Of a stretch of DNA of 22,285 bases, positions 4,916 through 9,485 are shown piece after piece. Numbering within the stretch: the stretch's first letter is position 1; each line of letters opens with the position of its first letter. The notes below the pieces were generated by a model. That model searched no databases, was not told where the DNA came from, and worked only from the letters and a program-made list of their open reading frames with translations. Source of the stretch: a virus; the IMG/VR virus record IMGVR_UViG_3300049595_003885, positions 1-22,285 of that record. One strand, given 5' to 3'. The position numbers and the translations under genes were made by a program.

Positions 4916-6477
4916 GTTTTATAAATGTGCATTCCACGCCATGTTGTGCCAGTATTTATTGTAATAAATCCAAGGATATCTGTTCCACCCGCTGATAGTA
5001 CAGGAGTAGTAGCATTATCCCATGCAACTGCAGCTGGCCAGGTCATAGTATAACTGCCACCTGCCGCCAGTTCAAGATAGAACGCATAAACTCTGTTCGT
5101 GGGTGCATTTGAAAATGTCCAAGTTAAGTTTGCATTTGCAGTTTTAGTAAAATAATTTCCTGCACTACAATCTATAGTTGATGCAGCTACAGCAACTGAA
5201 TTAGAACGCACACTTAATATATTAAAGTCCGCATTACCACTGACAGTTGTAGTTAAAATTTCTGGTACTGTCCATGTTACAGCAGCAGAACCATTGACTG
5301 ATTTTCCTGTGCCACCAATTGTAAAGGTTCGACTTGTTGTCCACGTATCTGCAGTACCTGCATTAGCAACATTCAAATTAGCAACACGAGTTATTGATGC
5401 AATAGTTAGCGGAGCAGTTCCTGTAGCAACTGTACTAGCAATAACGCCACCAGAAGTTAAACCTAAAGTAATATTCGCATTACCGATAACATTAAGATTC
5501 GATCTTGGTGATGTTGTTCCAATTCCAACAAATCTACTCGTCGCATTCGCAAATAGAGTGTTGGTTCCAAACGCAAATAAGTTTTGATTTAGATTAAATG
5601 TTAAATTTGCGCTGCCACCAGTGGTTCCATTATTGTTGAACAAGATTTGAGTGTTTGATCCACCAATAGGACCTGTGGCTCCTTGGACTCCCTGAGCACC
5701 TTGTGCACCGACAGCACCCTGGACTCCTTGAAAACCTTGTCGACCTTGTGCGCCCTGAACACCGACAGTACCAGCAGCACCTTGAGCACCAGCAGCACCA
5801 GCAGCACCCTGGACTCCCTGAGCACCAGCAGCACCTTGAGCACCAGCAGCACCAGCAGCACCCTGGACTCCCTGAGCACCAGCAGCACCTTGGGCACCAG
5901 CAGCACCTTGAGCACCAGCAGCACCTTGGGCACCAGCAGCACCAGCAGCACCCTGGACTCCCTGAGCACCAGCAGCACCTTGAGCACCGACAGCACCTTG
6001 AGCACCAGCAGCACCTTGGACTCCTTGAAAACCTTGTCGACCTTGTGCGCCTTGAACACCCTGCGCGCCTACTAAATTAGTTTGAGGTCCTATCCATGTA
6101 CCATTTGCTGCAACAACTTGACCGTATCCATTAATGTTTAATGCTAAAGCTGATAAATTATTGGTTACATTTGCAGTTCCAACGACGTGAAGGTTTGATG
6201 TTGGATTTGTGATTCCAATACCAACATTACCACTTGTTGCATTTGCAAATAGAGTGTTGGTTCCAACAGCGAAAACAGTAACAACATTAATAGTTGATGT
6301 ATTAATTGTAGATGGGTTTGTTCCCACCTCAATTACAGTGTTGCTAGAATTTTTTGCAAAAAGTCTTTTATCTGCTGTGTTGATTGCTAACTCTGCGCCA
6401 TTTGCAGAATTAGTTAAATTTGCAGCAGATGGAACTGCTGTATTTGTGTCACTTTTTTTAGTTAGTATTGTTGCCAT
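4912..6477 (-). CDS. Collagen-like tail fiber protein (521 aa)
   Basis: Structural fiber with a modular build. Residues 1-50 form a head domain (ANLTNSANGAELAINTADKR) similar in pattern to the N-termini of the 1,089- and 453-residue fibers here. It resembles the N-terminal domain of phage tropism-determinant-like fibers (GELA...D..LF). Residues about 55-135 contain a [18 protein letters not shown] motif. Residues 137-271 are 45 uninterrupted Gly-X-Y triplets. Then follow a [17 protein letters not shown] linker, a second GIGTTSPRSNLNVIGNAN motif and a strand-rich C-terminal domain ending GTTWRGMHIYKT. The C-terminal domain probably caps or trimerises the shaft. About 140 bases are nearly shared with the 1,089-residue fiber. 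No S74 domain is present, so trimer registration must come from another domain or a partner such as the downstream chaperone. Confidence 0.78.
   Translation of the reverse strand: MATILTKKSDTNTAVPSAANLTNSANGAELAINTADKRLFAKNSSNTVIEVGTNPSTINTSTINVVTVFAVGTNTLFANATSGNVGIGITNPTSNLHVVGTANVTNNLSALALNINGYGQVVAANGTWIGPQTNLVGAQGVQGAQGRQGFQGVQGAAGAQGAVGAQGAAGAQGVQGAAGAAGAQGAAGAQGAAGAQGAAGAQGVQGAAGAAGAQGAAGAQGVQGAAGAAGAQGAAGTVGVQGAQGRQGFQGVQGAVGAQGAQGVQGATGPIGGSNTQILFNNNGTTGGSANLTFNLNQNLFAFGTNTLFANATSRFVGIGTTSPRSNLNVIGNANITLGLTSGGVIASTVATGTAPLTIASITRVANLNVANAGTADTWTTSRTFTIGGTGKSVNGSAAVTWTVPEILTTTVSGNADFNILSVRSNSVAVAASTIDCSAGNYFTKTANANLTWTFSNAPTNRVYAFYLELAAGGSYTMTWPAAVAWDNATTPVLSAGGTDILGFITINTGTTWRGMHIYKT
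5541..5680 (-). repeat. 140-base near-identical segment shared with 10261-10400
   Basis: This block after the collagen tract matches 10261-10400 in the 1,089-residue fiber at about 129 of 140 positions by eye. It encodes the [17 protein letters not shown] linker and the TLFANATS phrase. Identity is much higher than in the flanking C-terminal domains, which differ completely. A related shorter copy of its TLFANATS end lies at about 6231-6275. Confidence 0.85.
5665..6069 (-). repeat. Collagen-like coding repeat, 45 Gly-X-Y triplets
   Basis: A 405-base tract encodes 45 consecutive Gly-X-Y triplets, with Y mostly Gln or Ala and X mostly Ala or Val. Gly codons are mostly GGT, while Ala and Gln codons vary. 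The low-complexity complement produces long but spurious open frames on the plus strand. Confidence 0.95.
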
Positions 6478-6487
6478 TTAAATAGTC

Positions 6488-6979
6488 TTATGCCCAACCT
6501 CGAGCTGGATTATTTGGAGCTGCAATAACTAATTCAGAGATGGATGAACTGTCAAAATCTTCAGCAAGAACTCTCAAATTTACATGAAATCCATCAATTG
6601 GTGCCATTGCTGAAAATTCTATTCCAGATTCAGAGTCTAAAATCATTTCACCAGTAGGTTTATAGATAACTCCGATAGTATCTAATGCATATTTATATGC
6701 ATCAGTAACAACATATTTGTCTGTTAAAAATTCTACTAAACGCTGTTTTGGAACTTGTTGTTCTCGTATCAATACAGCGTTAATGTGATTATTTTCTGGT
6801 TCAATTAAATGATTTGTTGTAAACTCAACATTATTATCAGAAACATACACATATTGAGTTACAAACTCTCCTTCAATATCTTCAAAACGAAAATCTGTTG
6901 CTTGTTGTGTGATTCCAGCTGCAGTTAAAACATCAAAAAGCTCTTGGCTAGATGGTGCTTTTAAATAAAAGTCAATCAT
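6488..6979 (-). CDS. Small phage protein of unknown function with C-terminal NPARGWA
   Basis: This 163-residue protein begins MIDFYLKAPSSQELFDVLTA and ends with GFHVNLRVLAEDF, then PNNPARGWA. I recognise this general layout (a short GxHVNLR-type phrase and a terminal P-x-x-P-x-R-x-(W/F)-A) from small proteins found near tail-fiber genes in many tailed phages. I know of no established function. It has no signal peptide, membrane segment or collagen repeats. The ribosome site is one of the best in the window: GAGG at 6990-6987, seven bases before the ATG, with no overlap with the preceding gene. It lies between the adhesin pair and the collagen fiber. A structural or fiber-assembly role is likely by context only. 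Confidence 0.6.
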   Translation of the reverse strand: MIDFYLKAPSSQELFDVLTAAGITQQATDFRFEDIEGEFVTQYVYVSDNNVEFTTNHLIEPENNHINAVLIREQQVPKQRLVEFLTDKYVVTDAYKYALDTIGVIYKPTGEMILDSESGIEFSAMAPIDGFHVNLRVLAEDFDSSSISELVIAAPNNPARGWA

Positions 6980-7014: not shown

Positions 7015-8229
7015 TTATAGTGTAAGAGCCTGAAGTTGAGTGTTGGCGAGGCGGGTGGGGTAGTAGGCGATGCGGCTGATGGTGCCGTTAAGAATAGAGC
7101 CACCAGCCCCAAGCGAGCCAATAGAAAGCCTATCAACAGTTGGGATTGCGCCAGATGTATCAGTGTTAACGGAACCGCCATTCAAGGATGCAGCAAAATT
7201 ATTTGCTTGATATGCCCCGACCATTTTAAATGAGGTAGAGGTTGAACCAGTTAATAACGCCTGAGTTGAACCACTACTACGAATCTGAAATTGCGCTAAA
7301 GCAGAATTCCAATAAATGTTAATGGCGTTATTGTTCGTGCCATCGCTAGCAGAAAAAGCAACATTTGTTCCAGAAAATGCGGCTGATGTATTAACAACAA
7401 CCGTCCCCTCACTCGCGTTGTACCACGACGAGAAATTCGTCCCCGTCATGCTCGCTGCATCCGCATTGCGCGTGAGGGCGGTGGTCGTCGTGGGGATGTA
7501 GGAGGTCGCAAAGTCTCCAGCTTCTAGTTGAGCGCCCCAGATGTAAATGCCAGAAGTGCCGTCGCCAGTTGATAATGTGTTATCTGCGTTTGTTGAATAA
7601 ATGCGTTGTCGAGACGCGGTTGCACCAGTTCCCGTAGTTCTTGTTATCGCACAACGATACCAGCCGTTGCCAACTGGAGTTATCGACGCCGTAACATTAG
7701 CACTAACAGTCCCTACCGTTCCCGCGCTTAAATTAAACCACGCGCCAATGTCTATGTTTTCTGGTCCGCGAGTGGCTAGATTAGACCAAGACCATTCGCC
7801 TGCTTTTGCAAAACAAGAAAATGTAAAAGTTGTTGATGCGGTCAAAGCCACGGTTGCAAACACTTGCCCGTTTCCTAACCCAGAATTTGTAATTAGTTTG
7901 TCGCCTGTTAAATTCCCATCGGGCGCAATAATTACATTGCTTGTAACGGTCGCTTGGTTTTTTTGCCAATGAGCATTTGCAAAATCTTCTGAATACAGTT
8001 CTGAATTCGTCCGCTGCTCCTCAATGAGCAAGCCTCGCGCTGCGAGCGTAGTGGGGTTGTAGTCAAAGCGGGCAACGCCAGAGGCAGCCGACGTCAGTAC
8101 GCCCAACTGGTTAAAAAATGTCGCCGTGGTTGCGCGGGTGAAGGTGATGCGGGGATCAAGTCTACCCATATTCGCAAAATCTATATTGAGCGACGGGGAG
8201 TTGGTAGGAAAATTGTTTGACAGACTCAT
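7015..8229 (-). CDS. Adhesin-like tail protein with LamG/concanavalin-type C-terminal domain (copy 2)
   Basis: This 404-residue protein is paralogous to the gene just upstream (8226-9485). Residues 1-75 hold a conserved phage-fiber N-terminus (LDPRITFTRATTATFF and GLLIEEQRTNS). Residues about 76-225 look like a carbohydrate-binding beta-sandwich (NAHWQKNQATVTSN, APDGNLTGDKL, GNGWYRCAITRT), typical of CBM-like domains. A conserved linker follows (SYIPTTTTALTRNADAASMT), then a LamG/concanavalin-like domain at about 250-404, ending ISRIAYYPTRLANTQLQAL. The proteins probably bind surface glycans. The conserved ends are noticeably GC-rich compared with neighbouring fibers. The ATG overlaps the preceding stop (ATGA, 8229-8226). 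An unrelated small minus frame at its 3' end (6972-7181) was rejected. The sugar-binding role is inferred from fold pattern, not shown. Confidence 0.65.
   Translation of the reverse strand: MSLSNNFPTNSPSLNIDFANMGRLDPRITFTRATTATFFNQLGVLTSAASGVARFDYNPTTLAARGLLIEEQRTNSELYSEDFANAHWQKNQATVTSNVIIAPDGNLTGDKLITNSGLGNGQVFATVALTASTTFTFSCFAKAGEWSWSNLATRGPENIDIGAWFNLSAGTVGTVSANVTASITPVGNGWYRCAITRTTGTGATASRQRIYSTNADNTLSTGDGTSGIYIWGAQLEAGDFATSYIPTTTTALTRNADAASMTGTNFSSWYNASEGTVVVNTSAAFSGTNVAFSASDGTNNNAINIYWNSALAQFQIRSSGSTQALLTGSTSTSFKMVGAYQANNFAASLNGGSVNTDTSGAIPTVDRLSIGSLGAGGSILNGTISRIAYYPTRLANTQLQALTL
8003..8035 (-). repeat. 33-base perfect direct repeat (partner 9259-9291)
   Basis: An identical 33-base segment at 9259-9291 encodes the same GLLIEEQRTNS region of the tandem paralogue. 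It marks the downstream edge (in protein order) of the conserved N-terminal block; sequence beyond it diverges sharply between the two genes. Confidence 0.95.
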
Positions 8230-9485
8230 TTCGTGAGTGCCTGTAAGGTGGTGTCGGCGAGGCGGACGGGGTAGTAGGCGATGCGGCGGATGGTGCCTGC
8301 TTTAACTCTGTTTACGCCTGCATGGTCTGACCCAATATCAAACCTTGTAAGCGCCGTTGGAATTGTTGCGGAAGTATCTGTTGCAACCGTCCCACCATCC
8401 TTACAAACCGCAATGTCGTTTGTTGCGTAAGCGCCGCAAAATTTGGTGTTTGTGTTAGCAGAAACGGCTACTGCCGCTGAAGCACCACCGTCAAACACGC
8501 CGCCACTTGCAGTTATTAGTTGCACGAAGCCAGTTGAAGTAACATTATCAACCACTGCGTTGTTGTAAGAATTGTCGCTCGCCCTTACAAGAAATTGATT
8601 ACCACCAGAAGCAGGCTGCGAAAGAGAAAATTCCACAAACATTGAGCCGCTTGATTGGTTATACCACGACGAGAAGTTGGTCCCCGTCATGCTCGCCACA
8701 TCTGCATTGCGAGTCAGAGCGGTGGTGGTAGTGGGGATAACGCTCGTAGCAAATGCGCCAAGTTCAAGTTGGGGCAAGCCGATGCGGAGGGTGATGTCGA
8801 TGGCGACGCCAGAGGAAAAAGTACAATTTAAAATCGCATTTACGAAAACGCTTGTTGCGTTTGCCAATGTATAAGTGTGGGTATACCGACTTAAAGAAGA
8901 AGTCGGCGTAAATGTTGCGAGGTTTGATTCATTGGTAGAACCGCCAGAGATATTGCCTCTAATACCTATTCTGACTGCTGTGATGTTTGTGGTATCACCC
9001 GCCACAAGTTTTACATATTGCGAAGCAGACCATGTCTGCCCAGAGGCTGCAACAATTTGAGTATTAGATTCAAAAAGTACCGATAAAGAGGTAGTGCTAG
9101 TTGTGCCAGACACCCGAAAATCAATGTATGTAATACCGTTTTCAGTACCTGTACCCACCACTTCTTGAACAAGCGTCCCAAGTCCAATAGTCGCCCAATT
9201 CGTCGGCAACGTCCCTGGCGTACCCGCCACTGCACCCACTCCCGTGTTGTTGCGGATGGAATTCGTCCGCTGCTCCTCAATGAGCAAGCCTTGTGAATTC
9301 AGCGTGGTTGGATTATGATCGAATCGCGCTGTGTTAGCAGTTGCTGTTTGTAACACACCAAATGCATCAAAGTATGTTGCAGTGCTTGCACGAACAAATG
9401 AAATTCTTGGATCAAGAACTTTAGATCTTGCAAAATTTAAAAGAAGTGATGGTCTAAATGCTGGAAAATTTGATGAAATACTCAT
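8226..9485 (-). CDS. Adhesin-like tail protein with LamG/concanavalin-type C-terminal domain (copy 1)
   Basis: This 419-residue tandem paralogue of the following gene has the same architecture: N-terminal fiber block (LDPRISFVRASTATYFD, GLLIEEQRTNS), a central sandwich domain, linker (SVIPTTTTALTRNADVASMT) and a C-terminal LamG-like domain ending IRRIAYYPVRLADTTLQAL. The central domain (about 80-245) is different from copy 2: it lacks the WQKN/WYRC residues and instead has a VGTGTENGITYIDFRVSGT-type pattern and a Thr/Ser-rich second half. The two proteins therefore may bind different ligands. It starts on the last base of the 1,089-residue fiber stop (TAATG at 9487-9483), with GGGA about seven bases before the ATG. 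Placement after a long collagen shaft fits a fiber-tip or side-adhesin role; this is inference. Confidence 0.65.
   Translation of the reverse strand: MSISSNFPAFRPSLLLNFARSKVLDPRISFVRASTATYFDAFGVLQTATANTARFDHNPTTLNSQGLLIEEQRTNSIRNNTGVGAVAGTPGTLPTNWATIGLGTLVQEVVGTGTENGITYIDFRVSGTTSTTSLSVLFESNTQIVAASGQTWSASQYVKLVAGDTTNITAVRIGIRGNISGGSTNESNLATFTPTSSLSRYTHTYTLANATSVFVNAILNCTFSSGVAIDITLRIGLPQLELGAFATSVIPTTTTALTRNADVASMTGTNFSSWYNQSSGSMFVEFSLSQPASGGNQFLVRASDNSYNNAVVDNVTSTGFVQLITASGGVFDGGASAAVAVSANTNTKFCGAYATNDIAVCKDGGTVATDTSATIPTALTRFDIGSDHAGVNRVKAGTIRRIAYYPVRLADTTLQALTK
9259..9291 (-). repeat. 33-base perfect direct repeat (partner 8003-8035)
   Basis: Partner of the repeat in the next gene. Other near-identical blocks shared by the pair lie at about 7410-7531 versus 8660-8770 (linker) and 7030-7085 versus 8245-8300 (C-terminus). 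Confidence 0.95.

Follow-up and report, generated by a model that had tools for sequence, protein, structure and literature searches.

Tandem tail adhesin genes of a T4-like phage as probable products of beta-sandwich cassette exchange at conserved intragenic blocks

The window analyzed here, which is the whole virus record IMGVR_UViG_3300049595_003885 (22,285 bases), comes from a T4-like phage, as typed from gp15-like, head closure Hc2 and head-tail adaptor genes among its neck and tail genes, and it carries two adjacent paralogous genes of the phrog_5939 family, A and B, both on the minus strand and overlapping by 4 nucleotides (nt). In each gene two divergent cores are set between a conserved N-terminal block (N-block), a linker and a conserved C-terminal end (C-end). 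We propose that the cores correspond to beta-sandwich cassettes which have probably been exchanged by homologous recombination via these intragenic blocks, both between phages and between tandem copies. A and B would function as receptor-binding tail proteins, each made of two carbohydrate-binding beta-sandwiches, and the N-block, linker and C-end would serve as intragenic boundary sequences for recombination with a co-infecting phage or with the tandem copy in the same phage, such that one sandwich is swapped and the other kept; the presumed benefit is a change of host range. In the lineage of the window, GC-rich phages would have supplied either one tract that starts near codon 50 of B and reaches through the end of A, or a number of overlapping ones. 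The phrog_5939 profile matches A with E=7e-98 and B with E=2e-64, covering positions 346-761 of 801, and a Pfam search of the two proteins returned no domain above the cut-off.

A codon alignment of A against B distinguishes the two kinds of segment: DNA identity is 64-78% in the linker, in the C-end and in the part of the N-block nearest its C-terminal side, and the cores, as the initial annotation of this DNA had noted, are divergent, indeed unrelated (33-49% nt identity, with core figures of 34% and 46%). The perfect 33-base repeat that it had pointed to (8003-8035/9259-9291) is exact and is embedded in a 71-nt pair that is 77% identical; other repeats pair 7417-7530 with 8658-8771 at 79% and 7022-7086 with 8233-8297 at 82%. 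The first 45 codons are 56% identical, with a GC content at third codon positions (GC3) of 0.59 in A and 0.06 in B. The conservation of the N-block, linker and C-end is thus genuine, but the description of the two genes as nearly the same at the DNA level was overstated, since identity is 56-78% plus the one perfect 33-mer.

The blocks had also been described as richer in G and C than the flanking fiber genes. This fails for raw GC, as the collagen-like repeats of the fiber genes reach 0.56-0.63, above A and B, because of their Gly and Ala codons; these repeats dominate raw GC, which was therefore dropped as a composition test in favor of GC3, for which they stand at 0.15-0.19. With GC3 the description holds, apart from the start of B: A (0.45) and B (0.41) lie above all other genes of the window (0.14-0.37), so that composition is not uniform along the stretch, and their GC3 is foreign to the window phage. 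Within the two genes the conserved blocks range from 0.48 to 0.77 and the cores from 0.30 to 0.36, against a window background of 0.23. In B, GC3 shifts from 0.08 to 0.48 at a change point placed at codon 50, near position 9335 (log-likelihood gain 13), and the GC boundary therefore falls within the N-block of B, the first 50 codons of which are most likely resident DNA.

We then compared A and B with 154 distinct homologs from viral contigs and two cyanophages, the family relatives being drawn from two scans (the best 80 of 408 and the best 80 of 519), a sample biased toward relatives of A and B. Core 1 of A is closest to the contigs L008 and L006 (97% nt identity) and L010 (93%), and core 2 of B to L086 (99%) and L101 (92%); among the same homologs core 2 of A has no relative above 49% and core 1 of B none above 59%, and no relative matches either protein over its whole length. 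In codon-level profiles the 97-100% identity ceases within a few codons at the edges of blocks and cores. A is identical to L008 over residues 67-149, remains close through the linker and falls to ~30% from residue 280, while B is at ~50% to L086 in core 1 and at 97-100% from about residue 256; each junction examined is seamless and keeps the register. The portals of L007/L008, L086 and L101 belong to three families (phrog_1216, phrog_156 and phrog_12082) with podovirus-type relatives, and the background GC3 of the donor phages is 0.62-0.81 versus 0.23 in the window. These matches support the earlier suggestion of recent acquisition and of ligand-binding domain exchange via conserved segments. 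The accompanying expectation of different relatives for the cores and the same relatives for the flanks was borne out for the cores; the flanks lack one common relative set, parts of them having traveled together with the cores and the first 50 codons of B appearing resident.

One part of the initial annotation, namely that the module was recently duplicated, does not survive this comparison. If a single imported gene had recently been duplicated in the window phage and its cores had then diverged fast under selection, the 33-bp perfect repeat and the foreign GC3 of both genes would be explained; we regard this as a very remote prospect, given the unrelated cores with their different close relatives and the disparity of the first 45 codons in both identity and GC3. 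Core 1 of A and core 2 of B find their 97-99% matches in other phages, not the same ones for both, and so were imported rather than diverged in place. Furthermore, in the Synechococcus phages S-CAM4 and S-WAM2 a tandem pair of family genes immediately follows a large fiber or virion structural gene, and this same arrangement implies that the tandem state is old.

The location of the switches could be followed across the family. Of 11,781 pairs of homologs, 25 have a core 1 of at least 85% nt identity, with core 2 below 60% in 13 of them, and 22 have a core 2 of at least 85%, with core 1 below 60% in 14. All 27 of these pairs with one core in common switch in the linker, at residues 222-280. 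Because choosing such pairs favors the linker, the ends of tracts that include a core were also counted without pre-selection (raw segmentation of all pairs proved uninformative, because linkers on their own already register as high segments). Blocks contain 39 of the 48 de-duplicated tract ends (linker 24, N-block 13, C-end 2), and the remaining nine lie in core interiors (one in core 1 and eight in core 2), which make up 55% of the length.

Recombination between tandem copies has probably left comparable traces. More than 30 loci contain two or more family open reading frames (ORFs), the maximum being five. L047 and L076, which come from different metagenomes, differ by 3 mismatches in 6408 bp and by none in 5266 bp, and L047 lacks 1282 bp of L076, with the result that core 1 of copy 1 is fused to core 2 of copy 2. 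The crossover lies inside the two linkers of L076 (6292-6401 and 7574-7683), which are identical over 110 bp amid unrelated neighboring sequence, an identity that we interpret as a recent linker homogenization tract. L092 and L093 provide a second fusion case in more diverged phages. Across 33 within-genome tandem pairs, linkers show an excess of identical codons of +0.136 over matched different-genome pairs (Wilcoxon p=2e-5); core 1 of the same pairs shows no clear excess (+0.028, p=0.1). Two further arrangements were noted in this context: L066, an AT-rich phage contig, has five family ORFs within one 13-kb stretch, and gene 49 of Azospirillum phage Cd (CU468217.1, 37882-39222) consists of consecutive A-like and B-like modules in a head-to-tail fusion.

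Several points weigh against homology-guided exchange. Eight tract ends lie inside core 2; the predicted structure of A, which comprises two beta-sandwiches and a C-terminal helix at high confidence (pLDDT 94), has its domain edges where the blocks lie; the linker shows modest position-specific codon conservation (an observed 0.43 versus 0.35 when shuffled); folding alone may account for the conservation of the blocks, selection having removed junctions within cores; all close donors are metagenome contigs; and the L047 deletion, taken alone, could be an assembly collapse. The match of blocks to domain edges and the modest codon conservation of blocks across distant pairs would suit the main rival explanation, that of illegitimate recombination at random points with selection keeping the between-domain chimeras, the blocks then being a shared structural base and no guide to exchange. 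This is the usual account where searches turn up no boundary sequences (PMC3029335), and we consider it improbable here. Homology-guided exchange is favored because the junctions are seamless and in register and because the L047/L076 deletion falls within a 110-bp perfect repeat; in addition, tandem copies are homogenized at synonymous sites, chiefly in the linker. The metagenomic origin of the close relatives, together with conserved blocks that invite mis-joins, also raises the prospect that the mosaics are artefacts of assembly or binning. This is hardly credible, as three other contigs carry the window genes at 100% identity, the donors, which stem from other metagenomes, match at 92-99% and not at 100%, independent assemblies contain several of the donor genes again (L007/L008 and L009/L010), and the foreign GC3 in the window is independent of any donor contig.

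The proposed exchange of sandwiches through blocks also has a compositional counterpart. Regressed on the phage background, GC3 of the N-block and linker has slopes of 0.68-0.91, and that of the cores slopes of 0.41-0.43 at a lower level. In a second sample, whose members were picked by a degenerate DNA pattern encoding GLLIEEQRTN and hence independently of the cores, block GC3 exceeded core GC3 in 94 of 99 cases, with slopes of 0.92 and 0.70. Throughout the family, block GC tracks that of the phage genome in which the blocks sit, and the cores are AT-shifted; therefore the cores are what travels. The window is atypical in having received GC-rich block DNA together with the cores. The conserved block motifs are of the EEQRTN and YIPTT..TR.AD..SMTGTNFSSWYN types. 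A more speculative extension, to which we give only limited credence, is that the DNA of the N-block and linker is held more alike than the protein requires, as a common exchange standard through which T4-like, T7-like, P22-like and Mx8-like phages (as judged by portals) draw sandwiches from one AT-shifted cassette pool. Block DNA conservation was considered as proof of selection for recombination and set aside as unproven, the same-codon excess over shuffles being 0.08 in the linker and smaller elsewhere, and codon conservation being modest over distant pairs. A separate codon pattern was seen at the conserved QLE motif (residues 234-236 of A), where CTA is the dominant Leu codon (67 uses; next CTC with 20) and CAA and GAA also dominate; the adjoining conserved codons end in G or C, and overall GC3 does not explain the pattern.

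With regard to function, profile comparison relates the family to Rcc01080, the head spike fiber of RcGTA (PDB 6tb9 and 6tba). The match spans the N-block, core 1 and the linker, at E=1.9e-68 when the A alignment is used (residues 13-264) and at 1.9e-26 with that of B; the profile also matches structural proteins of the Pseudomonas phages E217 and Pa193. The fold matches, to CBM40, CBM22, CBM4 and laminin G (LamG), indicate a carbohydrate-binding fold; as the predicted structure of B has low overall quality (pTM 0.45), only its domain-level fold matches were used. The RcGTA fiber binds the host capsular polysaccharide (PMC10218006, PMC7296036), and its N-terminal Leu/Gly repeat binds the base pentamer, anchoring it to the head base protein (PMC7296036). 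By homology to this fiber and from the folds, A and B most likely bind a surface glycan. Although the body of the fiber is homologous, A and B lack the Leu/Gly anchor repeat (A starts MSLSNNFPTNSPSLNI), are not directly preceded by a gene for an RcGTA-type head-spike base (the upstream neighbor of B is a 1089-amino-acid (aa) collagen-like fiber gene and that of A is B), and possess an additional LamG-like second sandwich. The tail-fiber neighbors and the absent head anchor argue for a position on the tail. Elsewhere in the family, the genes at L101:5029-5140 and L102:5896-6000 have Leu/Gly-rich starts (GLPSILSLGLPPL) that resemble the RcGTA head-fiber anchor, and each is preceded by an ORF of ~100 aa; these ORFs were considered as head-spike base homologs and rejected for lack of a match. 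The two family genes may be head-spike fibers, in which case cassettes would pass between head and tail adhesins.

The tandem phrog_5939 "tail proteins" of S-CAM4 and S-WAM2 represent the same arrangement in T4-like cyanophages, but their protein identity to A and B is only 32-41%, with no recent cassettes in common. In T-even gp38 adhesins, as described in the part of PMC12529663 that cites Trojet 2011, the choice of receptor is set by hypervariable segments interspersed with conserved motifs, much as in the A/B family; in that description the motifs are Gly-rich and the variable segments short, whereas in A and B whole beta-sandwiches lie between blocks that are not Gly-rich. Domain shuffling of receptor-binding proteins in phages (PMC10684548) and host-recognition modules common to the Alteromonas phages A5 and V22 (PMC10579305) are already known and, as here, involve exchange across phage families. 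Those cases concern protein-level or whole-module sharing; the present one adds nucleotide tracts that end at intragenic blocks, thereby defining to the base pair the boundary sequences used between phage families, as well as exchange between T4-like and podovirus-type phages at 92-99% nt identity, a composition signature and natural tandem fusions. Whether short conserved sequences guide phage mosaicism, or whether it results from random joins sorted by selection, is an old question. Such boundary sequences have been discussed (PMC3029335), with junctions at conserved sequences as in the present family, where they are evident and intragenic; convincing examples are seldom found, and the phrog_5939 family supplies natural ones at base-pair resolution, both across families and within genomes. 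The composition signature, with blocks tracking the genome more than cores do, could be used to find further cases. The family is a clear natural example of viruses trading host-recognition parts, and as near-identical host-recognition domains occur in a T4-like phage and in podovirus-type phages, shared hosts probably brought these phages, or recent ancestors of theirs, together.

Table 1. Coordinates of genes A and B and of their parts in the window
Feature	Coordinates	Strand	Remarks
Gene A	7015..8229	-	404-aa two-sandwich tail adhesin, phrog_5939; AlphaFold2 (AF2) pLDDT 94, pTM 0.89
A conserved C-end, residues 379-404	7018..7095	-	codon alignment, GC3
A core 2, LamG-like sandwich	7096..7392	-	closest relative 49% nt
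A linker, residues 223-279, GIYIWGAQLEAGDFATSYIPT..SSWYNASEGT	7393..7563	-	conserved, putative exchange block
A tract common with L008, residues 67-277	7399..8031	-	abrupt end at linker/core 2 edge
A core 1, residues 80-222, first beta-sandwich	7564..7992	-	97% nt to L008 and L006, 93% to L010
A conserved N-block, residues 12-78, end ..GLLIEEQRTNS	7996..8196	-	GC3 0.59-0.68
A N-block copy of the perfect 33-bp repeat	8003..8035	-	exact repeat; encodes GLLIEEQRTNS
Gene B	8226..9485	-	419-aa paralog, upstream of A
B tract common with L086, residues about 256 to end	8229..8720	-	mostly 97-100% nt
B core 2, LamG-like	8310..8633	-	99% nt to L086, 92% to L101
B linker, residues 228-284	8634..8804	-	conserved, putative exchange block
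B core 1, residues 78-227	8805..9254	-	closest relative L107, 59% nt
B conserved N-block, residues 12-77	9255..9452	-	codon alignment
B N-block copy of the perfect 33-bp repeat	9259..9291	-	exact repeat
B first 50 codons	9336..9485	-	GC3 0.08; change point; most likely resident DNA

A and B sit between two fiber genes, collagen-like fiber genes being present in the window. Directly after A, at 6488-6979 on the minus strand, lies a 163-aa gene of the phrog_18574 type, whose GC3 of 0.14 marks it as resident and therefore not imported along with the cassettes. Small genes related to it follow the family gene in L010, L101, L089, L093 and L137, and its product is possibly an assembly partner of the adhesin. 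An ORF of equal length in S-CAM4 was considered as its ortholog and rejected, there being no tblastn match. Finally, the 521-aa fiber gene differs from its counterparts in L003 and L005, contigs otherwise identical to the window across most of their length, by a 45-nt in-frame length difference in a collagen-like repeat (window 5800-5900), which is fiber length variation within one phage population.
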